Assembly: GCA_024640385.1 (NCBI GenBank)
Contig: JAHEFC010000054.1
Span: 1-14,187 of the forward strand
DNA length: 14,187 nt
Direction: 5' to 3'
DNA from: Sphingobacteriales bacterium
Lineage (GTDB): Bacteria; Bacteroidota; Bacteroidia; Chitinophagales; Chitinophagaceae
The notes beneath the pieces were generated by a model, which saw nothing but the letters and a program-made list of their open reading frames with translations, searched no databases and was not told the origin of the DNA. Within the stretch, counting starts at the first letter, position 1; every line of letters starts with the position of its first letter. Of this stretch, positions 2,613 through 14,187 are shown in pieces. Position numbers and translations under genes: made by a program.

Positions 2613-3257
2613 TTATAAACTGTCAAATTCTGGCAGGGCTTCCACTTTAGCATATGGAAACGATTTTAGCTTATGTACCCTATGATAATTCTCAAGCCCT
2701 GATATGCATACTGAACCCGCCTTGTCCAGGTTGATATTTCCATCTTCTTCCAGGCATTGCTGATCAAGCAAAATATGTCGGATCTGACCTATTACCAGTT
2801 TGGTGTTATTATGAGAGATGGGAATTATTTCCACCATTTCCATCCCTAGTCTTACCCTGCTTTCCTGCACGAATGGTGCACTGAATCCTTCGATACGGTA
2901 TGGCGTAAGCTTACAAGCCTCAAACTCTGAAACATTTGATTCAAATTTCGCCGATGTGTAATGTGCCTTTTCTATAAAGCCTTCATGCACATGATTGATC
3001 GTATAGACCCCATTGGCCATAATATTCCTGAAGGTATCGCCAGACACACCAACTGGTCTTTGTATAAATCCTACCAAGGCAGGATCGGCTCCCAGATGAA
3101 CCACAGAAGAGAATATGGCAAGATTGCTCTGCCCTTCTTTGTTTTGTGTACCAATAAGCATGGCTGGTTTGTAACCGGTAATGCTATTAACGAGGTTTGC
3201 CCTGTAAAAACGCCCATAGTTTTCCAGGTGGGCATTGGTCAGATGTAATTCACTCAT
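2613..3257 (-). CDS. Flavin reductase-like FMN-binding split-barrel protein
   Basis: A 214-residue protein matching the flavin reductase-like split-barrel group: FRANLVNS-type opening (FYRANLVNS, 17-25), then GYKPAMLIGTQNKEGQSNLA and IFSSVVHLGADPALVGF (48-64), which form the FMN-binding barrel. Later come YTINHVHEGFIEKAH and the C-terminal GSVCISGLENYHR. Members bind FMN and are cytosolic oxidoreductases; the true substrate of this subgroup is not established. The frame runs on to 3302, but the ATG at 3257 is chosen because it overlaps the TGA of the upstream gene as ATGA (3257-3254), a translational-coupling arrangement, and because the protein then begins as its relatives do. It forms a two-gene operon with the TIGR03643 protein. 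Confidence 0.88.
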   Translation of the reverse strand: MSELHLTNAHLENYGRFYRANLVNSITGYKPAMLIGTQNKEGQSNLAIFSSVVHLGADPALVGFIQRPVGVSGDTFRNIMANGVYTINHVHEGFIEKAHYTSAKFESNVSEFEACKLTPYRIEGFSAPFVQESRVRLGMEMVEIIPISHNNTKLVIGQIRHILLDQQCLEEDGNINLDKAGSVCISGLENYHRVHKLKSFPYAKVEALPEFDSL

Positions 3258-3523
3258 CGTTTGCTGATTTTGTTCAGGCTGATGACTCGCTGCCTGTTGC
3301 ATTTGAACCTGCTGATCTCCGGATTTCTTTTGGCAAGATGTTTCTTGCTGATTCCGCTATTGACCCGCTTTCGCCAGAGATTAAAACTGCTTCGTTTCAG
3401 CGAGCGGCGCATCAGAGCGATCACTTCAGCCTCTGACATACCAAACTGGGCATGGATCGCCTCAAAGGGAGTTCTGTCTTCCCAAGCCATCTCAATGATC
3501 CTTTCCATATCCCCGAGCGTCAT
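3254..3523 (-). CDS. TIGR03643/DUF2805 family small protein
   Basis: An 89-residue protein whose core (ERIIEMAWEDRTPFEAI, FGMSEAEVIALMRRSLKRSSF, LWRKRV) matches the TIGR03643/DUF2805 family, small helical proteins of unknown function with a helix-turn-helix-like look (an AI..QFG..E.EVI pattern). The start at ATG 3523 is preferred; the frame continues to 3538, but only a TTG lies there. The C-terminal 30 residues are strongly basic (KKHLAKRN, RFKCNRQR). Relatives often lie near cryptochrome/photolyase and other light- or oxidation-response genes (from memory, not checked). The partner here is a flavoprotein, but no photolyase is in the window. Its stop codon overlaps the flavin reductase start. 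Confidence 0.85.
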   Translation of the reverse strand: MTLGDMERIIEMAWEDRTPFEAIHAQFGMSEAEVIALMRRSLKRSSFNLWRKRVNSGISKKHLAKRNPEISRFKCNRQRVISLNKISKR

Positions 3524-3619
3524 CGGGATAGTAAACAAGGCAGGGGTGCTATGGTTCAGTAAATTCCTGGCCGAACTGTAAGGAAGCCGGGTCGCATGCG
3601 TCTATAGGGCAAAAATCAT

Positions 3620-4021
3620 ATGAGCGAATCGAATAAAAATATCCTGACCTGGGCATTGAGGCTGATTGCAGCAGTCATCATGCTGCAAACCTTGTTTTTC
3701 AAATTCACTGCGGCTGAAGAATCGGTCTATATCTTTTCAACCCTTGGTATGGAGCCCTGGGGCCGTATAGGTACCGGGGTTATGGAACTGATCGCTTCCA
3801 TTCTTATACTCATTCCCAGAACTACCGCCATTGGTGCGGTACTGGGATTGGGCATCATGGGCGGGGCCATTTTATCTCACATATTCATTCTCGGCATATC
3901 GGTGCAGGGCGACAACGGCCAGCTCTTTTTTTATGCATTGCTGGTATTCATGAGTTGCATGGTCTTACTCTATTTGCGTCGCCATGAGCTGCTGCGCTGG
4001 AAACAACTCATCAGGGCTTAG
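3620..4021 (+). CDS. DoxX-like small integral membrane protein
   Basis: A 133-residue protein with four hydrophobic segments: about residues 10-27 (WALRLIAAVIMLQTLFF), 50-66 (IGTGVMELIASILILIP), 69-95 (TTAIGAVLGLGIMGGAILSH) and 102-120 (LFFYALLVFMSCMVLLY). It ends in a basic tail (RRHELLRWKQLIRA). The layout and the first-helix pattern followed by KF are those of the DoxX-like family of inner-membrane proteins. Some members belong to oxidoreductase complexes; the role of stand-alone ones is mostly unknown. The gene is divergent from the TIGR03643/flavin reductase pair, with a 96-bp spacer, and lies 111 bp before the dehydrogenase gene in the same direction, so the two may be cotranscribed unless the hairpin between them stops transcription. 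Confidence 0.82.
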   Translation: MSESNKNILTWALRLIAAVIMLQTLFFKFTAAEESVYIFSTLGMEPWGRIGTGVMELIASILILIPRTTAIGAVLGLGIMGGAILSHIFILGISVQGDNGQLFFYALLVFMSCMVLLYLRRHELLRWKQLIRA

Positions 4022-4060
4022 GAATCTTCCGAAAAAAAGCTTAACTAGATGTTGATTTTC

Positions 4061-4104
4061 CCCTACCTCCAAGGTAGGGCTAGTACCCTACCTTGGAGGT
4101 ACTA
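4061..4104. promoter_or_regulatory. Perfect 16-bp inverted repeat with nested dyads ahead of SDR gene
   Basis: TACCTCCAAGGTAGGG (4064-4079) and CCCTACCTTGGAGGTA (4086-4101) are exact reverse complements around a 6-nt loop, CTAGTA. Inside this lies a smaller dyad, CCCTACCT-CCA-AGGTAGGG (4061-4079). CCCTACCT recurs directly at 4086, 25 bp from its first copy. A third dyad, TAGTACC-N10-GGTACTA, spans 4081-4104. Neither strand shows a U-tract after the stem, so it is a poor intrinsic terminator. The arrangement fits tandem operator half-sites for a dimeric regulator, or a strong RNA hairpin in the leader of the dehydrogenase gene that starts 29 bp downstream. Confidence 0.6.
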
Positions 4105-4132
4105 AATTCTTCAAACAACTAAAAAGCTAACT

Positions 4133-5029
4133 ATGGCAATTGTACTAGTTACCGGAACCAGCAGCGGGATAGGATTGGCCACCGCTACAGTTCTCGCCCG
4201 GGCAGGTCACACCGTTTACGCCACCATGCGTAATCCCCAAAAATCACCCAAACTAATTGAACTGGCAGAAAAAGAACACCTGCCGATCACTGTGCTCACC
4301 ATGGACGTGAACAACAGTGATTCTATTAAAGAAGCCGTAGCCATTTTAATGAATATTGAAGGCCATATTGATGCACTGGTGAATAACGCCGGCATCGGAG
4401 CTATGGGTTCTGTTGAAGAAACTCCCATTGAATTGTACAGGGAAGTCATGGAAACCAATTACCTCGGCGCCATTCGCTGCATTCAGGCCGTTCTGCCTTA
4501 TTTGAGGCAGAAAAGAGCCGGCACTATTATCAATATCACTTCCGTTGCCGGTAAACTATGGGGACAGTCGCACAGTCCCTATTGTGCATCAAAAGCAGCA
4601 CTGGAAGCTTTAAGTGAATCCCTGGCCCAGGAAGTGGCCCAGTTCAATATCAGGGTGGCAGTGGTTGAACCCGGTGTGATCGATACGGCAATATTCAGCA
4701 AGGAAACTGAAATACCAGCGCATACCCATTATCATTACTACCGCAGGCTGCAGGCACTATTTGCTGCTTCGTTGGAAAACCATGTTCCACCGGAAGTTGT
4801 AGGTAATGTAGTGAAAGATATTTTGGAGGGAAGATCAACTTCATTCAGAAACCCTGCCGGACCTGATGCAGAAGGTCTGATTCAATGGCGCGCATCTTTG
4901 AAAGATGAAGAATGGGTGCAGTCGCATAATATGGACGATGAAACCTGGCTGGCCCATGCCAAAGAAGCATTCGGTGTTGATATGCGGAAATACCTGGAAT
5001 CTGACATTAAATTCACAGCTCCGGCTTAG
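4133..5029 (+). CDS. Short-chain dehydrogenase/reductase (SDR), classical type
   Basis: A 298-residue protein with the full classical SDR signature: nucleotide-binding TGTSSGIG (7-14), MRNP after beta-2 (Arg33 suggests NADP preference), D58 in TMDVN, NNAG (84-87), the catalytic Ser137 in NITSVAG, Tyr150 and Lys154 in YCASK, and PGVIDT after beta-6. It is a cytosolic NAD(P)-dependent oxidoreductase; the substrate cannot be deduced. The C-terminal 70 residues are longer than in minimal SDRs and contain DAEGLIQWRASLKDEEWVQ, probably a subgroup-specific substrate cap. The start at 4133 is the first ATG and gives the standard beta-1 strand (MAIVLVTG). Its 3' end overlaps the convergent anti-sigma gene by 17 bp. 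Confidence 0.93.
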   Translation: MAIVLVTGTSSGIGLATATVLARAGHTVYATMRNPQKSPKLIELAEKEHLPITVLTMDVNNSDSIKEAVAILMNIEGHIDALVNNAGIGAMGSVEETPIELYREVMETNYLGAIRCIQAVLPYLRQKRAGTIINITSVAGKLWGQSHSPYCASKAALEALSESLAQEVAQFNIRVAVVEPGVIDTAIFSKETEIPAHTHYHYYRRLQALFAASLENHVPPEVVGNVVKDILEGRSTSFRNPAGPDAEGLIQWRASLKDEEWVQSHNMDDETWLAHAKEAFGVDMRKYLESDIKFTAPA

Positions 5030-5264
5030 CTCCAAGGACACTATCGATGATCTCTTCTTTCTGCTTTTCGGTCAGTTTGCTCACAGCTTGCTGCAAACCA
5101 AAAGCTTTTACGATCAGCTTATTTTGTGCCGAAAATCTTCTGCATAAACTGCATTCCGCCAAATGCCTCCAAAGCTGGAAACGCTGAAAAGCAGAAAGCT
5201 TTCCTTCCTCTTTTTTTGAAATCAGGTCCACCGCTTTTTTGCATGTGATCTTTGAATGGGTCAT
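5013..5264 (-). CDS. Small zinc-finger (zf-HC2) anti-sigma factor candidate
   Basis: An 83-residue protein with Cys8 and H34-x3-C38-x2-C41 (in RHLAECSLCRRF), the zinc-binding ZAS pattern of anti-sigma factors that hold ECF sigma factors. No transmembrane helix follows the finger, so it should be a soluble cytosolic regulator. Soluble ZAS proteins of this sort can sense redox state or metal through the zinc thiolates (family knowledge). Its ATG overlaps the stop of the sigma factor gene as ATGA (5264-5261), which ties the two in translation and strongly supports a sigma/anti-sigma pair. The C-terminal tail (LTEKQKEEIIDSVLG) is a charged helix. Its 3' end overlaps the convergent dehydrogenase gene (5013-5029), leaving no room for a terminator between them. 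Confidence 0.82.
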   Translation of the reverse strand: MTHSKITCKKAVDLISKKEEGKLSAFQRFQLWRHLAECSLCRRFSAQNKLIVKAFGLQQAVSKLTEKQKEEIIDSVLGAKPEL

Positions 5265-5836
5265 TTTGTTATCCAGTTTTTTTCAAGGCAGGCCCTTAAC
5301 TGCACCTTGGCGCGGTGGATCAATACCCAGTAATTAGAAGATGTCAGCCCCATGATTTTACAGATCTCTTCGCTGTCCAGGTCATCCACATATTTCATTA
5401 CAAATACTGCATGCTGGATCTGCTTGAGTTTTTTACCGCAAGAATCAAATACTTTAAAAAATTCCCGGCCCTCTATTTCATTTCGAAAATCCACACTGAA
5501 AGAAGAAGGATACATCCCCTTACGCCAGTGATCTTCATGGTCAAAATAAGTACCGTCTTCATTCTCATTCCTGATCCCTGCCACCACAGCACCGCTGTTC
5601 AGTTTCCTGTAATGGTCAATGATCTTCGATCTCAGGATAAGGAAAAGCCAGTTCTTTACTGACGACTCTCTACGGAACGAATCCCTGTTTCGCCAGGCCG
5701 CCAGGAAAGTATCCTGCACCAGGTCCTTACCAAGCTCTTCATCAGCTACCCTTCTGACTGCATAATGGAAAAGAAGATCAGAATGATCTTCCACCCATTT
5801 GCGGAATTCCGTTTCACTCAGTTTAGTTGTTTCCAT
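5261..5836 (-). CDS. ECF-type RNA polymerase sigma factor
   Basis: A 191-residue group 4 sigma factor. Region sigma-2 spans about residues 16-80, with LFHYAVRRV, the ELGKDLVQDTFLAAWRN core-binding segment and VKNWLFLILRSKIIDHYRK for -10 recognition. An acidic linker (about 85-120) follows. Region sigma-4 spans about 130-187, with MKYVDDLDSEEICKIMGLTSSNYWVLIHRAKVQLRACLEKNW. The SSNYWVLIHRA helix resembles the TIGR02943-type sigma-70 subgroup (recognised from memory). It directs RNA polymerase to a small regulon, likely including its own operon. The gene follows the second YHS gene by 48 bp on the same strand and overlaps the anti-sigma gene. There is no extra C-terminal domain. Confidence 0.95.
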   Translation of the reverse strand: METTKLSETEFRKWVEDHSDLLFHYAVRRVADEELGKDLVQDTFLAAWRNRDSFRRESSVKNWLFLILRSKIIDHYRKLNSGAVVAGIRNENEDGTYFDHEDHWRKGMYPSSFSVDFRNEIEGREFFKVFDSCGKKLKQIQHAVFVMKYVDDLDSEEICKIMGLTSSNYWVLIHRAKVQLRACLEKNWITK

Positions 5837-5846
5837 GCAGCGTATT

Positions 5847-5878
5847 CCAATATAGCCAATTGCACCAGAAAACGCAAT
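5847..5878 (-). promoter_or_regulatory. Candidate internal promoter before sigma factor gene
   Basis: On the minus strand, ATTG (5878-5875) and TATATTGG (5854-5847) are separated by 20 nt. The second box matches five of the six fixed positions of the Bacteroidota -7 element TAnnTTTG. It falls in the 48-bp gap between the YHS gene and the sigma gene. The expected leader would be only about 5 nt before the ATG at 5836, which weakens the case. If real, the sigma/anti-sigma pair could be expressed without the upstream structural genes. Confidence 0.3.
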
Positions 5879-5884
5879 CCCTGT

Positions 5885-6322
5885 TCACTCAACATTTCTG
5901 AGCCTAGGCCAGTTCAGGTCTGCTTTTTCGATCATTCCCCTGGTATCCATACTCCATAACTCTTTTACTTTTTTGTTGTAATTGAAATAGAGTTTATGGT
6001 CAATAATGGTCCAGGTCTCTGTTTCTGTTGGCGCTTTATGACCGTCAGCCATTCCATAGGCGCAGTAACCTCCGTACTGGGGCGCATATTTTTCAGGACT
6101 TTGCTTGAACTGATCGAGGTTAAATTGGGAAGAAAATAGCCAGCGTGCATCTTTCCATTCGTAACTATATTTCTCATCACCCTTCACTGGTTTTCCTTCT
6201 GAAAAGAACGCCACTGCATCATAACCCCTGATGGCTGCACCATCTTTCTGAAAAATCTCGGCTTTCTGTGCATGTACATTCACGTACAGGAACAAAAAAG
6301 CCACTACATAGATGATCTTCAT
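5885..6322 (-). CDS. Secreted YHS-domain '(seleno)protein'-type protein, second copy
   Basis: A 145-residue protein with a signal peptide (MKIIYVVAFLFLYVNVHAQ). It then has a YHS-type domain: IRGYDAVAFFSEGKPVKG (32-48), YSYEWKDARWLFSS, KYAPQYGGYCAYGMADG (79-94), WTIIDHKLYFNYNKKV and a closing KADLNWPRL. This matches the family often named 'YHS domain-containing (seleno)protein', in which the residue after GGY is Cys or selenocysteine. Here it is Cys87, codon TGC, and it is the only cysteine in the protein. The product is probably periplasmic, and the role of the family is unknown; a redox or metal-handling function is inferred from the conserved Cys/Sec site. It is a tandem paralogue of the upstream gene (8-bp gap) and precedes the sigma factor. 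Confidence 0.88.
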   Translation of the reverse strand: MKIIYVVAFLFLYVNVHAQKAEIFQKDGAAIRGYDAVAFFSEGKPVKGDEKYSYEWKDARWLFSSQFNLDQFKQSPEKYAPQYGGYCAYGMADGHKAPTETETWTIIDHKLYFNYNKKVKELWSMDTRGMIEKADLNWPRLRNVE

Positions 6323-6330
6323 AGTAAATT

Positions 6331-6798
6331 TTATTTGGTTAATTTCTGCCAGTTCAGGTCGGCTTTGGAGCGAAGGCTGCTCTCGTCTTTATTCCAGCTT
6401 TTCAATGTGTTGTTGAAGTATTTATTGTAGAACAGGTAAAGCTTTCCATCCAGCACCTTGAATGTTTCCGGATCCACTTCCACTTTTTCACCATTCTTTC
6501 CCATGGCATAGGCACACCAGCCGCCATATTGGGGCTCATAGCGAGCGGGTGCAGCCCTGAAGGTTTCTTTATTTTGCGGAGTAGAGAAATGATAAGTAAC
6601 GCCCTCATAAACCAGGGCGTTGGCGGCATTTCCCCTGATGGCTTTACCCTGGGTGAAATAAGCTACCGGGTCATATCCTTCTATGGCAAGTGAGGAACCG
6701 GAAAGATTGAAATCTTTTTTTCTTTTTTCCTGCTGTGCATCGGCAGCCAGGTGCAGGCTGAGGAACAAGAATAACATGGGCAATAACCTCTTCATCAT
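6331..6798 (-). CDS. Secreted YHS-domain '(seleno)protein'-type protein, first copy
   Basis: A 155-residue protein with a signal peptide (MMKRLLPMLFLFLSLHLAADAQ). A YHS-type domain follows: IEGYDPVAYFTQGKAIRGN (39-57), GVTYHFSTPQNKETF, RYEPQYGGWCAYAMGKNG (86-103), FKVLDGKLYLFYNKYF and a closing KADLNWQKL. The conserved position after GGW is Cys95 (codon TGT), the sole cysteine. It shares the order of motifs with the following gene but differs at many positions, so the duplication is old rather than recent. Two in-frame ATGs lie together at the start; either gives a good signal peptide. It lies 44 bp after the haloperoxidase-like gene. Expected location is the periplasm, and the substrate is unknown. 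Confidence 0.88.
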   Translation of the reverse strand: MMKRLLPMLFLFLSLHLAADAQQEKRKKDFNLSGSSLAIEGYDPVAYFTQGKAIRGNAANALVYEGVTYHFSTPQNKETFRAAPARYEPQYGGWCAYAMGKNGEKVEVDPETFKVLDGKLYLFYNKYFNNTLKSWNKDESSLRSKADLNWQKLTK

Positions 6799-6842
6799 TT
6801 GGCTTTCCCATTAAGACGCAGTTCTATTGCTATCCTTACAAA

Positions 6843-8159
6843 CTACTTTGAATTTTTTGCAGCTCCATAGTGAACCGCCATCTTGTTGACCATGAATTGA
6901 CCAACCTGCCTGCCCTGCCACACACCCTGGTCAATGGCATCCATATAATGTATTCCGCCATACATACGTGATATGGACGCTTCTGCTGCCGCAGCATTGA
7001 AAGAACTGAATTTTCTTGCCTTAAGGCCAAATTCCATTTCGGTATTATCATTGAATGCCAATGAATCTCCGAAAATAGCCGTCAGTATAACAGCCGCAGC
7101 ATTAGATGCCACACTATGCCCGGATACATATTCCGGGAAAGGCGGTGTCTGAAGCAATGGCTTCCAGGCCGGGTCTATTAGCCGCTGGATCACATGTTCG
7201 GGCCTGACCCGGTTAGAACGGTATTTCTCATCCCAGCATGCCATGAAAGCATCAGCGAGTCCTATGGATACTAAAGCATGTACCAGCACAGTTTGCTCAA
7301 TATTCAGTTTTCTTAGCCTGCAGGCAATGCCTGTGATACCTACCCAATGCCCGCCGGGCGAGATCTTCTTCAATCCGAATTCCACATGCCCGATCTGCTG
7401 CACAGCAAATGGATTGCAGTCCCAGAAACTGGCGATCTCCTGTTTGTTTGGATCCCGTTCCCTGTCCACGTCATAGACTTGTTTCATCATCTTGTAAAAA
7501 GATGAACCCTTAGCCGTATCATAGGGCACAGGAGGCTCCGGTTTGAACTGCTGTACCGAATCCAGGTAGAATGTTCTCAGGCTGTTCCAGTGCGGCTCAA
7601 TTGGCGCCATAAAAGCAGGCGGGGTTGGCTTCCAGTATCCATCACCGTTACGAAGGATATAACGGGGCATGTTGTTGAGTTTGTTAAATCCATCACCCGC
7701 AACATATTTCATCACCTGCGCAACAACTGAATCAACCAGCATGGCTGTTTTATTCAACGCCGGGTTCTTCGCATAGGCTGCCATCAGTGAATCCGTATCT
7801 TTCTTCACCATATACCCCGATGGCAACAAACGTTCCCCGGTTTTCATGATGGCCAATAAAATAGCAAGATCTTTGTCCGTTCCGTTCAGCAGCTCTTTAG
7901 ATACGCTGATTCCATTAAAACCATTCAACACCCCTTTGAAAGAAGGCAGTTTGGCATACAGGGTGGCAGTTTCATATGCCGCCAGTGACACATAAGCATA
8001 ATACCTGCTGGCAGCCACCGGTGAAGCCACATCATTCACCATCACATCTGTCACTTTCTTCAGGCATAGCACATACTGATCAGTGGCTGAAGGCTTTGGC
8101 TTCCCGGCAAAAAGGGAAGAAGCAATAAACAGCGATACAGTAAATAATCTCATTTTCAT
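6843..8159 (-). CDS. Secreted vanadium-dependent haloperoxidase / PAP2-family enzyme
   Basis: A 438-residue protein with a signal peptide (MKMRLFTVSLFIASSLFAG) and all three parts of the vanadate/phosphate site shared by vanadium haloperoxidases and type 2 acid phosphatases. These are K312-x6-R319-P320 (KYRSNRVRP), S346-G347-H348 (EYVSGHS) and S397-R398-x5-H404 (SRMYGGIH). His404 would be the residue bonded to vanadium, and His348 the acid/base. Length and the long helical N-terminal half fit vanadium-haloperoxidase-like proteins better than short PAP2 phosphatases. The proposed reaction is oxidation of halide by H2O2 in the periplasm or outside the cell; a phosphatase role cannot be excluded from sequence. 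The gene starts 3 bp after the stop of the large FG-GAP gene, a tight pairing suggesting joint function. A second in-frame ATG (8153) is an alternative start. Confidence 0.88.
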   Translation of the reverse strand: MKMRLFTVSLFIASSLFAGKPKPSATDQYVLCLKKVTDVMVNDVASPVAASRYYAYVSLAAYETATLYAKLPSFKGVLNGFNGISVSKELLNGTDKDLAILLAIMKTGERLLPSGYMVKKDTDSLMAAYAKNPALNKTAMLVDSVVAQVMKYVAGDGFNKLNNMPRYILRNGDGYWKPTPPAFMAPIEPHWNSLRTFYLDSVQQFKPEPPVPYDTAKGSSFYKMMKQVYDVDRERDPNKQEIASFWDCNPFAVQQIGHVEFGLKKISPGGHWVGITGIACRLRKLNIEQTVLVHALVSIGLADAFMACWDEKYRSNRVRPEHVIQRLIDPAWKPLLQTPPFPEYVSGHSVASNAAAVILTAIFGDSLAFNDNTEMEFGLKARKFSSFNAAAAEASISRMYGGIHYMDAIDQGVWQGRQVGQFMVNKMAVHYGAAKNSK

Positions 8160-8162
8160 GGC

Positions 8163-11100
8163 CTAGTAATTTATAAAAACGGGTTGGCCATTATTGACTC
8201 CTGCCATCAGGATCTTCTTGCCTGACCTTTCACCAATGATCTTTACATCACGCACACAACCGCCTATTTTCAGGCCACTCTCAGTCTGATCCTCATACCT
8301 GAAATTTCCTTTCCCATCGCCCAATAACACCACACCCTCATTCGCATCGATCTTTCCGATCTTGATCCGGGTCTGTTCAATATTGCCCAACAACAAAATA
8401 TCTTTCTTCCCGTCTTTATTAAAATCATCAATATGGATAGCATATACAGGGGCAAAATCAGCCTGCACTGGCAAGGATCTTGCCACGTAAGTTCCATTCA
8501 CATTTTCCAGCCAGGTGGTACTGAGATAAGTCACCGAAAGTACCGAGGCCTTTTGCAATTGTTCCGGCGTCAGCACATCTTTGATCTTTACATCTGCATA
8601 CGAATCATAGGTAGGATATTTCTGCCGCAGGCTTACGATCTGGTCAGTCATTTCATCCCGGGACGCCATGGGATAAGAAGTCCCCTGGATATAATAACAG
8701 ATCAGCGGATCTATGAACCCGTTGTTATCAAAGTCTCCATAATATAATTCAACAGGCTGGGTTGCACTGGCATGCAATTGGGAATTATCTCCCCAGTTTC
8801 CTGCTACCATGTCCAGATCGCCATCTCCATCAAGATCATCAAATGCCATCCTGTTCCACCACCCGTTCAGTTTTTCTTTGAATATTTTTTCAGAAACATC
8901 ACTGCATTTGCCATTCTCAAAATGAAATGCCTTCAACGGCATCCACTCACCGCAGATGATCAGTTCATTCTTCTTATCCCCATTCATGTCAACCCAAGCC
9001 GCATCCGTAACCATACCCAGGTTATTGAACATAGGCGCCTTCGAAGATGTCACATCGGTGAACTTCCCTTTTCCGTCATTCTCCAACAACATGCTGGGAA
9101 CCGGCATGGGATATTGCTCTGGCTTTACTCTGCCAGAAATAAAAAGATCGTTATCTCCATCCCCGTCAAAATCCAACACAGTAACTTGGGATCCTGAAAT
9201 ATTATCTACAGGCAACAGCTCTTTCTTCAGCAGAAACCTTCCCCCTTCATTGATATATAACCTGTCCTGCAAACTGGATGGATCATCAATGGCATAGCCT
9301 CCGCTTACCACGTATAGATCCATATCTCCATCTTTGTCAGCATCGAAGAACACCGCACCACAATCTTCATCTCCGGCATCAGCTTCAATATCCGGTTGCT
9401 TCGACTCTACATAACGGCCATCCTGCAGCTGAATAAAGATCGCTCCTTTCTGGCCTTTGGGACTGCAGATGTAAAGGTCCGTCAGCTTGTCACCGTTGAC
9501 ATCACCCGTTGCAATTCTGGGCCCGCTGTAGGAAAGCATATTCGGCATCAGGGGCTGGATCTTGAAATCATTGACCACATCTTCTGTATGCTTATAAGGC
9601 AACGAAACACTGGCTTCACTGAACAGCGTTTTTGCAGGCAATGCCGGGGGGATATTCTTCAATCCCGGTTTGTATTCAAACAACACTGTTTTATCTATAC
9701 CAATATTTCCCCTCATCACTTCGTAGGTTCCATCAGGCCAGACGATCTTTATAGAATCAATTTTGTTTTCTTTCAATCCAAAATGCAATGGCCCCTGCAT
9801 GGCGCTCTGAAAACCGTGTACAGGATAATTCTGGACCGAGTAACTTTTTGTGCCAGCGTAAACTGATACTGATGCACCTAAAGCCAGTGTATTTTTCCCG
9901 TACCCTTTCAGATTCACGTTCAGGAAATGTCCGCCTTTCGCATCTTCGATCGTATTGTTCCGGTACAATCCCGCCTCCTGGTTCATTGAATTGACCACCA
10001 GGTCAAGGTCGCCGTCATTGTCCAGATCAGCATATACTGCACCATGACTGAAATTCAACTCCCCAAAACCCCAGTCTGCAGACCTGTCTTTAAAACTCAA
10101 TCCATCCACATTTTCAAAAATATAATTATGAAGAGGTGTTGACACAATTGTTTGCAGCATGCCAAACATCTTATCATCGGTAGTACCCTGTATGTGCTTC
10201 AAACGCTCGTTGGCATAGAATTTCATGAAGTCGCGGTTGATCATGTCACGGCCATAGCCATTGGTGACAAACAAATCTTTGAAACCGTCATTATTATAAT
10301 CAGCTAACAAGGCTGACCAGCTCCAGTCAGTATTGGACACTTTAGCGATCTGGCCTATTTCACTGAAGGTACCGTTGCCGTTATTGATCTGCAGCATGTT
10401 CCTCATCAACTGATGATAGAACCCATTCTGCAAAGTATTATTATAGAGTTCATAATTATCCGGTGCATACAAAAGTTTCTGCCTCCGGTTATCTTCAGGA
10501 AGCATATCGAGCGTATAGATGTCTGCACGACCATCATTATTAATGTCTGCAACATCAACGCCCATGGAGAAATTAGAAAGATGGCCCAATGAAGATTTGA
10601 GCACTTCCCTGAATGTGCCGTTGCCATTATTCATGTACATATAATCCTCTTCAACATAATCGTTGGTCACATACATATCTGGCCAGCCGTCGTTGTTGAT
10701 ATCGGAAATATTTAATCCTAATCCATATCCCAACGGATTAGAAATGATACCTGCCTTCAGGGTCACATCCACAAACTTACCCTCCCTGTTCTCATATAAC
10801 CTGTCACCTGCGCCTGGGTCAACCATCTTCTTGACATAGGCTGCATCAAAATTCCGGAGGTTCTTGATATTGTGATTCATCACGAAAAGATCCAGGTCAC
10901 CATCGCGATCATAATCAAAAAAAGCAGACTGCGTTGAGTAGCCCATATCGTTGACTCCCATTTCCGCTGCTTTATCGGTGAACGTTAGATTCCCATTATT
11001 GATCAGCAATTGGTTCTGACGATGTGAAGAATCCAGATCACCCGAATAACACACATAGATATCCAGGAAACCGTCTCCATTTACATCTGCTACGGAAGCT

Positions 11101-11456
11101 CCTGTTTTCCACCCCCTTCGGCCACCTGCACCCGAAGTGCGGGTGATATCAGTGAATTTCCAGTTGCCCTGGTTGATATAAAGTTTGTTGGGAAGAAGAT
11201 TGGCGGTAAAGAACAGGTCCACCAATCCATCGTTATTGAAATCACCGGCAGCAACACCGCCCCCGTTAAAGAAATATTCGTAGGTGATAATGTTCAGCTC
11301 GGGTGATTCCAACACTTTGTTCTGGAAAAGAATCCCGGTTTCAGCAGAAGGCTGTTTTGTGAATAGTGTTTTTTCCTGGCTGAACGAATTAAAATCTGTC
11401 AGGATAATCAGCAGCAACAGGATCGCACAACTCCGCAGGTATAATGATATCAACAT
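8163..11456 (-). CDS. Large secreted FG-GAP/VCBS repeat protein with ASPIC/UnbV domain
   Basis: A 1097-residue protein with an N-terminal signal peptide (MLISLYLRSCAILLLLIILT...FSQ). I count fourteen DxNxDGxxD-type loops of the FG-GAP/VCBS kind. Seven fall at about residues 72, 124, 181, 252, 304, 386 and 478 (for example GDFNNDGLVDLFF, ADVNGDGFLDIYV). An ASPIC/UnbV domain follows at about 510-593 (GASVSVYAG, SMQ-like QSAMQGPLHFGL, IKIVWPDGT). Seven more fall at about 652, 705, 762, 823, 874, 908 and 1010. FG-GAP repeats form calcium-binding beta-propeller blades, so two propellers around the ASPIC domain are plausible. Relatives are CRTAC1-like surface or periplasmic proteins with a binding or scaffold role. 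The ATG at 11456 is preferred; the frame reaches 11477, where only a TTG lies. It is first in the six-gene minus-strand array. Confidence 0.92.
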   Translation of the reverse strand: MLISLYLRSCAILLLLIILTDFNSFSQEKTLFTKQPSAETGILFQNKVLESPELNIITYEYFFNGGGVAAGDFNNDGLVDLFFTANLLPNKLYINQGNWKFTDITRTSGAGGRRGWKTGASVADVNGDGFLDIYVCYSGDLDSSHRQNQLLINNGNLTFTDKAAEMGVNDMGYSTQSAFFDYDRDGDLDLFVMNHNIKNLRNFDAAYVKKMVDPGAGDRLYENREGKFVDVTLKAGIISNPLGYGLGLNISDINNDGWPDMYVTNDYVEEDYMYMNNGNGTFREVLKSSLGHLSNFSMGVDVADINNDGRADIYTLDMLPEDNRRQKLLYAPDNYELYNNTLQNGFYHQLMRNMLQINNGNGTFSEIGQIAKVSNTDWSWSALLADYNNDGFKDLFVTNGYGRDMINRDFMKFYANERLKHIQGTTDDKMFGMLQTIVSTPLHNYIFENVDGLSFKDRSADWGFGELNFSHGAVYADLDNDGDLDLVVNSMNQEAGLYRNNTIEDAKGGHFLNVNLKGYGKNTLALGASVSVYAGTKSYSVQNYPVHGFQSAMQGPLHFGLKENKIDSIKIVWPDGTYEVMRGNIGIDKTVLFEYKPGLKNIPPALPAKTLFSEASVSLPYKHTEDVVNDFKIQPLMPNMLSYSGPRIATGDVNGDKLTDLYICSPKGQKGAIFIQLQDGRYVESKQPDIEADAGDEDCGAVFFDADKDGDMDLYVVSGGYAIDDPSSLQDRLYINEGGRFLLKKELLPVDNISGSQVTVLDFDGDGDNDLFISGRVKPEQYPMPVPSMLLENDGKGKFTDVTSSKAPMFNNLGMVTDAAWVDMNGDKKNELIICGEWMPLKAFHFENGKCSDVSEKIFKEKLNGWWNRMAFDDLDGDGDLDMVAGNWGDNSQLHASATQPVELYYGDFDNNGFIDPLICYYIQGTSYPMASRDEMTDQIVSLRQKYPTYDSYADVKIKDVLTPEQLQKASVLSVTYLSTTWLENVNGTYVARSLPVQADFAPVYAIHIDDFNKDGKKDILLLGNIEQTRIKIGKIDANEGVVLLGDGKGNFRYEDQTESGLKIGGCVRDVKIIGERSGKKILMAGVNNGQPVFINY

Positions 11457-11566
11457 AAGGGCTTTTGACAATTGCAAGTTGGTGAATTTAAATAAAAACT
11501 GCCCTTTCCAGCCCCTTTTTTATGGGAGAGGACCATAGTAAGTGTTAAATCATAAAACCGGGCGTA

Positions 11567-12331
11567 TCAGACTCCTGCAATACGTGATTTATAAGTGGCC
11601 AGTGCCTCTTCCAGCCTCTCCTTGGCCGTGGTGTCTCCCGGCACATTATGGGAGGGGTGAATATGAAGCTTGAAGCCCCTGTCCGCAAGGATCTCGCCAA
11701 CGGTGGTGACCGTCATCCAGACTGCAGTCACAAAGGCCATGGTAGACAATGGCCCGAGTTTGTCCTGGTGATTTTTTACCGGTACGCTGGCATCTTCTGC
11801 CGGCGCACAGGAGTCCACCACCAGGTCGGCCACATCGAAAATGGTTTTTCCGGAGGAATGGCGTGTCTGCTTGCCTTTTGCAGCAGCGGCAGATCCATAG
11901 GCGATCACCTTCATACCCTTTTTCTTGGCCTCAATGGCAACATCAATATTCACATTATTGATTCCCGAATGGGAAAAGATCCACATAGTATCCCGGGGAT
12001 CGAAATTGTAACCCTTCATGATCTCTACACCATAGCCTTCCACCCTCTCCAAAAAAACAAACTGGTGCACGCCCATCTCACCCGTGATCCGGGTAAAAAA
12101 TGTAAGCGGCAATTCTACCATGGGATGAAAGCCCACAAATCCGCCGATCCGCGGATACATTTCCTCCACCGGAATGGTTGCATGTCCACATCCGAATGTG
12201 TGCACCCATCTTCCACATTCAATACTGTCTGCCATTATTTCCGCAGCCTTTCGGATATTCTCCATCTGGGTGTCTTCGATCTTCGTCATAACAGCCCTTG
12301 CATTTTCGAGCCACTGTTTTGCTAACATCAT
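11567..12331 (-). CDS. SIS-domain sugar isomerase-like protein (UPF0309 type)
   Basis: A 254-residue cytosolic protein with a SIS (sugar isomerase) fold: VHTFGCGHATIPVEE (43-57) as the first phosphosugar loop, then FSHSGINNVNIDVA (119-132) as the serine-rich phosphate loop, KKGMKVIAYGS, and TRHSSGKTIFDVADLVVD (156-173). A long N-terminal helix precedes the domain. This layout is that of the UPF0309 / 'sugar isomerase domain-containing' group, thought to act on phosphorylated sugars or amino sugars; the exact substrate is not known. The first loop carries Cys48 and His50. The gene starts 3 bp after the permease stop and is last in the ROK-permease-SIS unit. Two adjacent ATGs open the gene. A 110-bp gap separates it from the large FG-GAP gene on the same strand, where I see no clear terminator or promoter. 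Confidence 0.88.
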   Translation of the reverse strand: MMLAKQWLENARAVMTKIEDTQMENIRKAAEIMADSIECGRWVHTFGCGHATIPVEEMYPRIGGFVGFHPMVELPLTFFTRITGEMGVHQFVFLERVEGYGVEIMKGYNFDPRDTMWIFSHSGINNVNIDVAIEAKKKGMKVIAYGSAAAAKGKQTRHSSGKTIFDVADLVVDSCAPAEDASVPVKNHQDKLGPLSTMAFVTAVWMTVTTVGEILADRGFKLHIHPSHNVPGDTTAKERLEEALATYKSRIAGV

Positions 12332-12334
12332 TCG

Positions 12335-13483
12335 TTATTTTTTATTTAGTTTTTGCATAATGAAATAAAACAGAATGGCCATTACCAGGATCTCCACATA
12401 ACAGACCAGCGCCAGGTTGGCTACACCGTACTCCTGTATAATGATGCCCGTAAAATAATTGATCAGCATATTGCCGATCAGGGCCACAACAAATACAAAA
12501 CTGATCGCTGTTCCTGAAATGGCCGTAAAATGGTGCCCCACAAATCCAAGCATCACCGGGAATCCGCCCGATAAACCCGCACCCGACAAACAAAGACCTG
12601 CTGTAACACTGACCACATCATTACCGAACTGCATCAGCAATACACCTGCGATCAACAGCACAAGGCAAGTCCAGAGTAATCTCACCTGCGATATTTTTCT
12701 CAACATTGTGCCTGTTACTATGCGCATAGCAACCATTCCCATCATATGGAACGACAAGGCAAACAATGCCTGTCCTTCGCTCATCAGATCCCTTGATCCA
12801 ATATAGACGGTGGTCCAGTTTGTAATGATCGACTCCAGGCTGCTCTGGAAAAACAGGAAGAACGAGATCAGTAATAATAAAGGCACCAGTAGTTTGCTCC
12901 ACTCGATCCGGATACCTCCCTGGCTTGTTTTTGCAGGCGGAAACCGGGTGAAAAGATATATCAAGCCCAGCACCAGTGTGATCCAGCCCAATCCGGCGAG
13001 AACCTGCAAAGGCGCCACTACATTGATCAGCAGCCCAAGTATCAGTGGCATTCCCAATGCCCCCAAACCGAAAAACACGCCGAGGATATTGAGATTGGGA
13101 CCCTTGTGTTCATCACTCAAATCAACCACAATAGAATTGGTGGCTCCATTGATCACACCTCCGCTTATCCCAAAAAGAAATATGAATGCCCTCAGCAAAT
13201 TGACGTCATGGGAATATGCAATGCCCTCAAATCCTATAAAGATGCCGAGCGCGGCAGCAAACATGAGGTATTTATATCCGTATCGATCACAGACGGGACC
13301 GAAGATCAGCGAGCCGATGATGAGACCAATGGGAAGAATGGAAAACAAGGTGCCTGAATCATAATTATTCAGCTCGAATTTCGTTTTCAGCTCATTGGCC
13401 AGCGAGCCCAGCGTTACGATGGTCATACCGAATATCAGCATGCCGGAACAGGCCGCAGCAAATGCGATCTTCTTATTATACAA
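12335..13483 (-). CDS. MFS sugar permease candidate
   Basis: A 382-residue membrane protein with about twelve hydrophobic segments in the usual 6+6 layout, with the central loop near residues 185-200 (RFPPAKTSQGGIRIEW). The loop between helices 2 and 3 reads GPVCDRYGYK (62-71), the MFS motif A with Asp66 and Arg67. The segment INGATNSIVVDLSDEHKGPN (111-130) resembles the fucose/glucose-galactose (FHS-like) transporters, which carry an Asn-rich motif in helix 4, so a sugar cargo is likely. It is about 20-50 residues shorter than classic FHS permeases. The flanking ROK and SIS genes, 4 and 3 bp away, support uptake of a sugar that is then handled in the cytosol. Substrate is inferred only. Confidence 0.9.
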   Translation of the reverse strand: MYNKKIAFAAACSGMLIFGMTIVTLGSLANELKTKFELNNYDSGTLFSILPIGLIIGSLIFGPVCDRYGYKYLMFAAALGIFIGFEGIAYSHDVNLLRAFIFLFGISGGVINGATNSIVVDLSDEHKGPNLNILGVFFGLGALGMPLILGLLINVVAPLQVLAGLGWITLVLGLIYLFTRFPPAKTSQGGIRIEWSKLLVPLLLLISFFLFFQSSLESIITNWTTVYIGSRDLMSEGQALFALSFHMMGMVAMRIVTGTMLRKISQVRLLWTCLVLLIAGVLLMQFGNDVVSVTAGLCLSGAGLSGGFPVMLGFVGHHFTAISGTAISFVFVVALIGNMLINYFTGIIIQEYGVANLALVCYVEILVMAILFYFIMQKLNKK

Positions 13484-13487
13484 GATT

Positions 13488-14187
13488 CTAAATTTTCCGG
13501 TTTCTTAATGCCAGTAATCCCGCACCGTACAAACCCGCTTTATCATGCAATGAGCTGGCTTCGATCTCCACCAACTTCATACTCACCGGCTGCGCCCATT
13601 TCTCCGCTTCTTTCCTGATATCAGGGATGAATCTGGCAGCAGGACCAAAAACTCCTCCGCCTAAAATGATCTTCTCCGTATCAAACAAACTCACAAGATT
13701 GGCAATGGCCATGCCCCATAATTCAATGGCGGAGCTGATCACTTTGCGCGCAATGGGATCATCATTTTCAAAAGCATCAAATACGTCATGGGCCGTAATG
13801 TCTCTTCCTTTGAGGGTTCCATGATAATCTTCATCTTCTGCCACAAATTTACGGGCCTGTTTTGCAATGCCCTCGCCCGATGCCATGCCTTCAAAGCATC
13901 CTGCACTGATAAACTCATCGCGGAATGGGCGTTCCAATGCGAGCCAACCAATTGCCCCGGCAATATCATGTGCACCCCTGAGTACCTGGCCACCCGTCAT
14001 GATCCCAGCGCCAATGCCTGTACCCACAGACAGGAAAATCGCGTCATTGCAGCCTTTGGCAGAACCTTTCCAGGCTTCACCTAAAATATAACAGGCCCTG
14101 TCACTGTCGATACTGACAGGTATGCTACCCGTGACCTGTTCTACTTTATGTCTCAATGGGTAATTTTCCCAGCCACTGATATTGGGA
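13488..14187 (-). CDS. ROK-family sugar kinase-like protein, N-terminus cut by window edge
   Basis: The frame is open to the window edge: 232 residues are visible, beginning PNISGWENYPL, a normal ROK segment. The TTG at 14156 is therefore an internal leucine codon and not the start. Seen are the catalytic-Asp region (VSIDSDRACYILGE), the phosphate-binding SVGTGIGAGIMTGGQVLRG, and DNA-binding-free C-terminal helices ending GLYGAGLLALR. ROK kinases phosphorylate glucose, N-acetylglucosamine, N-acetylmannosamine or fructose; some members are repressors. Unusually, the zinc-site pattern is mostly absent: the GEIGH histidine is Trp (GAIGWLAL), and the CxCGxxGC stretch is reduced to a single Cys in FISAGCFEG. 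It is first of the visible ROK-MFS-SIS unit, whose promoter is outside the window. Confidence 0.9.
   Translation of the reverse strand, partial: PNISGWENYPLRHKVEQVTGSIPVSIDSDRACYILGEAWKGSAKGCNDAIFLSVGTGIGAGIMTGGQVLRGAHDIAGAIGWLALERPFRDEFISAGCFEGMASGEGIAKQARKFVAEDEDYHGTLKGRDITAHDVFDAFENDDPIARKVISSAIELWGMAIANLVSLFDTEKIILGGGVFGPAARFIPDIRKEAEKWAQPVSMKLVEIEASSLHDKAGLYGAGLLALRNRKI

Follow-up and report, generated by a model that had tools for sequence, protein, structure and literature searches.

A predicted ECF sigma/ZAS anti-sigma switch with YHS and DoxX targets beside an FG-GAP/ASPIC and haloperoxidase-like gene pair in a Chitinophagaceae genome, with a putative promoter embedded in related sigma genes

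Extracytoplasmic function (ECF) sigma factors that work with small cytosolic zinc-binding anti-sigma (ZAS) proteins are known from Haemophilus influenzae (RpoE2-HrsE) and Neisseria (SigE), and the papers on these and similar systems are cited here from excerpts. In H. influenzae, RpoE2 and its 67-amino-acid ZAS anti-sigma factor HrsE control periplasmic MsrAB and a DoxX/COG3220/DUF2063 operon, and RpoE2 expression is raised by hypochlorous acid (HOCl) and H2O2 (PMC7907618). SigF of Caulobacter crescentus, with the anti-sigma factor NrsF, responds to chromium and cadmium (PMC3511200), gig of Cupriavidus metallidurans responds to copper and gold (PMC10304878), and rshA of Corynebacterium glutamicum has a SigH-controlled promoter within the sigH coding region (PMC3489674). 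The locus described here lies in a 14,187-nucleotide stretch (contig JAHEFC010000054.1 of assembly GCA_024640385.1, hereafter the window) of a Sphingobacteriales bacterium of the family Chitinophagaceae, in which an earlier note had read six minus-strand genes between 5013 and 11456 as one exported oxidation/metal module with its own sigma switch. With fair confidence, and from sequence, we instead favour two adjacent and separately controlled units, in which YHSa-YHSb-sigma-ZAS together with DoxX-SDR would form an ECF/ZAS envelope-oxidant switch, and an FG-GAP/ASPIC gene with a haloperoxidase-like gene would be an independent pair outside it. In place of a guessed six-gene pathway, this gives a stress switch that is widespread in Bacteroidota a defined predicted regulon and promoter, and it connects two poorly known families, YHS (seleno)protein and DoxX, with a putative sigma-controlled stress response. 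As predicted, the switch is of a known kind with a new target set and stands beside an ordinary gene pair, and its most novel part is a putative promoter embedded in the reading frame of related sigma genes; no described precedent was found among the matches listed, which covered open-licence PMC papers.

The sigma factor (5261..5836, minus strand; 191 amino acids) matched PF04542 and PF08281 above their cut-offs and no further sigma domain above cut-off, which makes it an ECF sigma factor, and its best NCBIfam match, TIGR02943, stayed under the cut-off of that model. Cys133, Cys159 and Cys183 are conserved in 166, 157 and 165 of 166 homologues, and with three such near-invariant cysteines the sigma factor itself could also be a sensor. 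The neighbouring anti-sigma gene (5013..5264, minus strand; 83 amino acids), which overlaps the sigma gene by 4 nt, had no Pfam match and barely passed the cut-off of the anti-sigma model NF052368 (50.2 versus 50). Its C8-X25-H34-X3-C38-X2-C41 arrangement, in which each of the four ligands is conserved in 142-144 of 144 homologues, follows the ZAS pattern C/H-X23-26-H-X3-C-X2-C shared with RpoE2-HrsE and Neisseria SigE (PMC7907618), and the sigma and zinc-finger proteins of the earlier note were borne out as an ECF sigma factor with a soluble ZAS-type anti-sigma factor. The families that it had named for the six genes were likewise recovered by profiles, as FG-GAP_3, UnbV_ASPIC, PAP2, YHS (twice), Sigma70_r2 and r4_2 were all above the Pfam cut-offs in the window proteins. 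Export of the first four products also agrees with their hydrophobic N-termini, a call made by eye without a signal-peptide predictor.

A candidate promoter motif, TGTAAGG-N15-CGACTA, came out of an enumeration of two-part words in the upstream regions (250 nt each) of 91 sigma genes; its general form is TGTAAGG-N15-CG[AT]CT[AT]. The window holds two exact sites of the CGTC form, both outside the stretches used for discovery. One, TGTAAGG-N15-CGTCTT (6813..6840, minus strand, read from 6840 to 6813), is located 14 nt before the start of YHSa (6331..6798, minus strand), within the 44-bp gap that follows the haloperoxidase gene, and because a promoter-like site occupies this gap, the gap is no argument for a single operon. 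The other, TGTAAGG-N15-CGTCTA (3577..3604, plus strand), lies 15 nt before the gene of a DoxX-like membrane protein (3620..4021, plus strand; PF13564 above cut-off), which is followed by an oxidoreductase gene of the short-chain dehydrogenase/reductase (SDR) family (4133..5029, plus strand; PF00106), presumed to be on the same transcript and reaching with its 3' end 17 nt into the convergent ZAS gene. The DoxX and SDR genes go with the YHS/sigma unit, and they were missed before; they lie outside the six-gene coordinates. In the whole 4.08-Mb window genome (585 contigs, 94% complete), TGTAAG-N16-CGWCTW has zero-mismatch matches only at these two sites, and the predicted regulon consists of YHSa-YHSb-sigma-ZAS and DoxX-SDR. 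Of the genes known from the RpoE2 regulon, DoxX has a site in the window and Msr genes have one in relatives; the window genome has no zero-mismatch site outside the window. A sigma-70 promoter scan of 3400-12400 was uninformative (15 found versus 16.1 expected).

Among relatives, the motif has 126 exact sites around sigma genes (167 loci after removal of redundancy, 2,418 kb), as compared to 2 for the reversed pattern and 0 with a spacer of either 11 or 20; in 738 kb from 52 loci that lack the sigma factor it has 2. The 167 loci include those that yielded the motif, so these counts describe the motif and are no blind test. Sigma genes contain 36 of the 126 exact sites and have another 24 upstream; 8 lie upstream of bufferin precursor genes, 6 of YHS, 2 each of DoxX and bufferin DoxX, and 39 of other open reading frames (ORFs), and 9 are elsewhere. 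A site is present in 27/42 sigma-bearing genomes versus 14/105 others (p 2e-9), and the reversed pattern is not concentrated in this way (22/42 versus 42/105, p 0.2; sets transcribed by hand). Of 19 distinct sigma+YHS loci, 14 have a motif match in the 200 nt preceding a YHS, DoxX or sigma gene when 2 mismatches are allowed (11 when 1 is allowed), and the reversed control gave 0 in the same test. A further upstream tally (150 nt, up to 2 mismatches, duplicates kept) found it before 13/15 BufA, 21/63 YHS and 4/28 DoxX genes. Within the same 150 nt it also precedes MsrA, MsrB and MsrBA fusion genes (loci L119, L126, L127, L275, L367, L389 and L400), and other genes behind it encode a DUF1223 protein (L238), a cytochrome b561 (L243), an AhpC/TSA (peroxiredoxin) protein (L388), an ArsS-type radical SAM protein (L123) and a protein weakly similar to RclC (L378; 63.6 bits, far under the cut-off of 275). 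Small Met/Lys-rich repeat proteins stand directly behind it at L366, L371, L379, L380, L382-L384, L386, L389 and L390; three that were tested had no NCBIfam match, and they are possible sacrificial methionine or metal sinks. Thirteen off-locus motif regions in sigma-bearing genomes (L346-L358) were also mapped, several of which are probably chance matches. A literature search with 'TGTAAGG' returned, among the matches listed, no title on bacterial sigma factors.

The YHS genes are linked to the sigma factor in position as well. Both YHSa (135 bits) and YHSb (5885..6322, minus strand, 8 bp behind YHSa and 48 bp before sigma; 159 bits) are over the cut-off of 70 for NF041384 'YHS (seleno)protein', and both are probably exported. 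The family is listed with one selenoprotein of motif GxU in the excerpted source (PMC13188914). Cysteine takes the place of selenocysteine here, in G-W-C of YHSa and, as Cys87, in G-Y-C of YHSb; since this G-[WY]-C fits GxU and Cys87 is invariant in 60/60 homologues, a reactive cysteine is likely, with a chemistry suggested by analogy. In 147 genomes of the family, YHS proteins were found in 40 and sigma relatives of at least 99 bits in 42; 19 of these 42 also carry YHS, and in 8/19, window included, both lie within about 5 kb (hand tally). The phylum set of 395 genomes, which shares genomes with the family set, has sigma in 57, YHS in 50 and both in 20, and the two are within 5 kb in 9/20 with the window and in 8/19 without it, as compared to 0.08 expected by random placement (at most 3 in 200,000 simulations). 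This linkage was seen in several families. Sigma was found in only two of 41 genomes in a genus search, the window genome and G530, and the locus of the latter (L284) has YHS, sigma, DoxX and YHS together, with a 2-mismatch motif upstream of each YHS. The fullest form, on one strand, is sigma-ZAS-YHS-YHS-possible barrel-DoxX-DinB-like-TANGO2-ATP-grasp (L249:7854-12972, by profile and Pfam labels), and the order sigma-ZAS-YHS(-YHS)-DoxX-DinB-like-TANGO2-ATP-grasp is conserved between it and L253:7942-12363. Of 43 distinct YHS loci, window included, 24 have DoxX at a distance of no more than 4 kb, and therefore the window DoxX gene belongs with the YHS genes. As side observations, L253 also has a DM13 electron-transfer protein, the single TANGO2 match of the window genome is elsewhere (G000:C198), and at L400:8030-9631 an MsrBA fusion gene with the motif before it has YHS and DoxX genes downstream in the same orientation, so that methionine repair and YHS are found in one locus.

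In the proposed mechanism, an oxidant of the reactive-chlorine or peroxide type, or a thiophilic metal, would disturb the zinc site (C-H-C-C) in the anti-sigma factor, a cytosolic protein. The freed sigma factor would then start transcription at TGTAAGG-N15-CGTCT[AT] before YHSa, raising sigma and anti-sigma too, and at DoxX-SDR as a second predicted target. Oxidised thiols or metal in the envelope may then be dealt with by DoxX in the membrane and by the exported YHS proteins, whose single conserved cysteine is at the position listed as selenocysteine for one member of their family. The upstream FG-GAP/ASPIC and haloperoxidase pair, which has no sigma site, would stay outside the switch. An envelope oxidant is favoured over metals because the motif targets of relatives include Msr and AhpC/TSA genes and because the pair resembles RpoE2/HrsE. 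In that comparison the likeness is one of system design: the RpoE2-HrsE regulon, as excerpted, is MsrAB and DoxX/DUF2063 (PMC7907618), and in relatives of the window sigma factor genes for Msr, bufferin and DoxX have the motif upstream, whereas the targets predicted in the window, YHS-YHS and DoxX-SDR, differ from this Msr/bufferin-type set. It is doubtful, though a possibility to be taken seriously, that the YHSa-YHSb-sigma-ZAS unit is mainly a copper or metal homeostasis switch like the bufferin (gig) systems, with YHS proteins that bind metal. The same sigma family and motif do occur beside MNIO, DUF2063 and DoxX genes and before bufferin genes in relatives (MNIO identified by Pfam in one), in clusters of the kind described in the available text of PMC12452194 and PMC10304878, and gig is copper-induced in C. 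metallidurans (PMC10304878); bufferin genes adjoin sigma relatives at 10/92 and 9/77 loci, and a sigma-ZAS-bufferin locus was noted at L414. The window, however, has YHS in place of the bufferin peptide, MNIO (PF05114) had 0 matches in its genome at 94% completeness, so that no bufferin cluster of this make-up was recognised there, the other targets are Msr and peroxiredoxin genes, and the YHS proteins keep one cysteine only. For the oxidative or metal stress sensing proposed in the earlier note, an oxidative/metal-type role was supported, by analogy between regulons.

Several results weigh against an envelope-oxidant switch with these targets. By number, the motif is not enriched: the window genome has 25 matches at up to 1 mismatch versus 123 for the reversed pattern, the 147 family genomes hold 57 exact sites versus 92 reversed, and 25/200 shuffles of the window also give at least 2 matches at up to 2 mismatches, which makes two window matches at that threshold unremarkable; the weight of the motif rests on where its exact sites fall. 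The excess in 27/42 sigma-bearing genomes comes partly from sites inside sigma genes. Five of the 19 sigma+YHS loci have no motif (L255, L258, L360, L400 and L423), no site within 2 mismatches precedes 42/63 YHS genes, many of them second in tandem, or 24/28 DoxX genes, and most sigma loci have no YHS gene, which was near sigma in only 13/92 and 7/77. The AlphaFold model of YHSb has a mean pLDDT of 74.6 and falls below 50 at 84-86 and 93-97 around Cys87, and Foldseek, run with the YHS model, found no similar structure at an E value of 0.001 or below; sequence searches for solved relatives of YHSb or ZAS found none at E up to 1. The preference for an oxidant signal, like the suggested YHS chemistry, draws on analogy, and in the excerpted reports H. 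influenzae without RpoE2 was no less resistant to oxidative stress in vitro (PMC7907618), and loss of SigF gave C. crescentus no sensitivity phenotype in vitro (PMC3511200).

The FG-GAP/ASPIC gene (8163..11456, minus strand, from the ATG used by the earlier note; the longest ORF, 8163-11477, starts with TTG at 11477) and the gene of the vanadium-haloperoxidase-like (PAP2) enzyme (6843..8159, minus strand) are 3 bp apart. It is very improbable that they belong to one six-gene operon in which sigma drives FG-GAP, haloperoxidase, YHSa and YHSb from upstream of 11456. The genes share a strand and have short gaps (3, 44, 8 and 48 bp and the 4-nt overlap, as the ORF coordinates bear out), and no terminator-like site was found in the 44-bp gap between haloperoxidase and YHSa, a point that also counts against two separate units, so that read-through from FG-GAP/haloperoxidase into the YHSa-YHSb-sigma-ZAS unit is possible and could join them. 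The one-operon reading was rejected on motif and neighbourhood evidence. Within 300 nt before the window FG-GAP and haloperoxidase genes the best match has 5 mismatches, and in the upstream tally of relatives the motif precedes 0/23 haloperoxidase and 1/27 FG-GAP genes (the one at L174; four of the 27 were too short to test). A haloperoxidase search of the 147 family genomes gave matches in 79, and the best match from each of the 20 best-matching other genomes was taken for the pair analysis, in which flanks were mapped with the window proteins as queries and with profiles built from the loci; the flanks differ in length, that of L011 being only 3 kb. An FG-GAP relative adjoins the haloperoxidase on the same strand in 20/20 of the relatives examined, and YHS or sigma is near it in 0/20, therefore the pair is independent of sigma. 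SusC/SusD-like genes are near the haloperoxidase in 15/20 (three representatives Pfam-checked), and at L156-L174 the pair is usually near such genes as if it were part of a nutrient-uptake locus. Judged by these neighbourhoods, FG-GAP/ASPIC and haloperoxidase are a standard, widespread pair, usually with SusC/SusD, and not part of the sigma switch. The window genome itself has nine haloperoxidase matches, one of which adjoins another FG-GAP gene (L285). A neighbourhood search of the kind proposed in the earlier note placed sigma near YHS and not near haloperoxidase, which was close to sigma in 2/92 family, genus and phylum loci (the window and L134) and 0/77 named-scan loci, two sets that overlap slightly. 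The proposal of that note, that all four exported genes are driven by the switch, is not supported: the YHS genes are linked to sigma, and FG-GAP and haloperoxidase form an independent pair with no motif upstream.

The enzyme aligns over residues 27-428 with the vanadium-dependent haloperoxidase of PDB 4cit/4usz (E 3.8e-114), which we take to be from Zobellia. In the alignment with 4cit the blocks K-x6-RP, S-G-H and S-R-x5-H of the active site are retained, so that the K/R, S-G-H, R and H residues, presumably those that bind vanadate, are all present at the sequence level, and therefore 'haloperoxidase-like' is better supported than 'PAP2 phosphatase'. The window enzyme, with its predicted halide oxidation, differs from that of 4cit/4usz in being paired with an FG-GAP/ASPIC protein. 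For FG-GAP as a scaffold of the enzyme and for the YHS proteins as its thiol partners, no evidence was found. Adjacency, the vanadium-haloperoxidase-like sequence and the analogy to HOCl-type regulons would fit two units coupled by function and not by promoter, the haloperoxidase making hypohalite and the neighbouring switch protecting the envelope of the producer. A distant haloperoxidase relative in genome G143 (L134:6233-7606), 351 bp after a sigma-ZAS-bufferin-DoxX set, points the same way and is the only other sigma/haloperoxidase neighbourhood found. Such coupling is nevertheless distinctly unlikely, as the window gene order was seen in one genome only and 0/20 of the haloperoxidase relatives examined are near sigma. 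We keep to two separately controlled units.

The sigma genes of many relatives carry the motif within their own coding sequence, where it covers the codons of C-K-E-L-N-I-T-[AP]-S-N and is mostly followed after 60-90 nt by the called anti-sigma start; these sites share their spacing with the intergenic ones. The genes analysed were drawn from L096-L135, L231-L284 and L359-L438, and with the strict pattern 41/91 and 21/72 carry an embedded site. Among 177 codon columns of the 91 genes, the strongest synonymous bias is at 166, 160, 167 and 159 (G/n 2.27, 1.70, 1.19 and 0.81; next-ranked column 0.78, mean 0.36), and these four spell TGTAAG...CGTC. The segment was recognised in 82/91 genes, where lysine is AAG in 43/46 as compared to 28% in the same genes, and the codon at position 166 ends in CG for 20/23 alanines, 21/23 prolines and 15/18 serines. 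In 72 further named-scan sigma genes, from which two duplicates and a few genes without a recognisable segment had been dropped, four of ten codons stand out, again the same ones (0.45, 1.34, 1.45 and 1.18 versus 0.04-0.35). That the motif is a coding or codon-usage coincidence and no promoter is suggested by its overlap with a conserved protein segment, and is unlikely because its codons occupy the top four places for synonymous constraint among 177 columns and recur in the 72 further genes with the intergenic spacing. For a sigma gene carrying its own target promoter in the reading frame, there is codon-level evidence over many species.

We lean towards a dual-coding sigma gene in this widespread, mostly Bacteroidota, oxidant-type ECF family, in which the codons of C-K-x-x-x-x-x-[APS]-S would also spell the sigma factor's own promoter and raise anti-sigma, and downstream effectors, without raising sigma. 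In lineages like that of the window this site would have been lost and the promoter would stand upstream, in the window before the genes of the exported YHS proteins, so that feedback once purely negative would have become combined. The window sigma gene has 3 mismatches at the embedded position and so no SigH/RshA-type embedded promoter, which was probably lost. The SigH-RshA system is alike in that the anti-sigma gene alone is transcribed from a sigma-dependent promoter located in the coding sequence of the sigma gene; it was shown, in the excerpt of that work, in one actinobacterium (PMC3489674), whereas the sites here are deduced from codon constraint in many relatives, mostly Bacteroidota. 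Among the matches listed, which covered open-licence PMC papers and no subscription journals, no report of a conserved embedded anti-sigma promoter was found. Of 166 distinct sigma factors, 92 have an embedded motif (up to 1 mismatch), 29 an upstream site and 0 both. This mutual exclusion was dropped as independent evidence (p 0.004 on the uncorrected table of 91), since the upstream form changes just twice on a FastTree tree, which makes the exclusion one or two events, and an independent-pair test cannot reach significance.

The remaining genes of the window flank the two units. Upstream of the DoxX promoter, a flavin-reductase-like gene and a DUF2805 gene are on the opposite strand (2613-3538), and upstream of FG-GAP, ROK, MFS and SIS-domain genes follow each other with gaps of 3-4 bp (11567-14187). 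The FG-GAP and haloperoxidase pair may here sit behind a sugar operon, in place of SusC/SusD.

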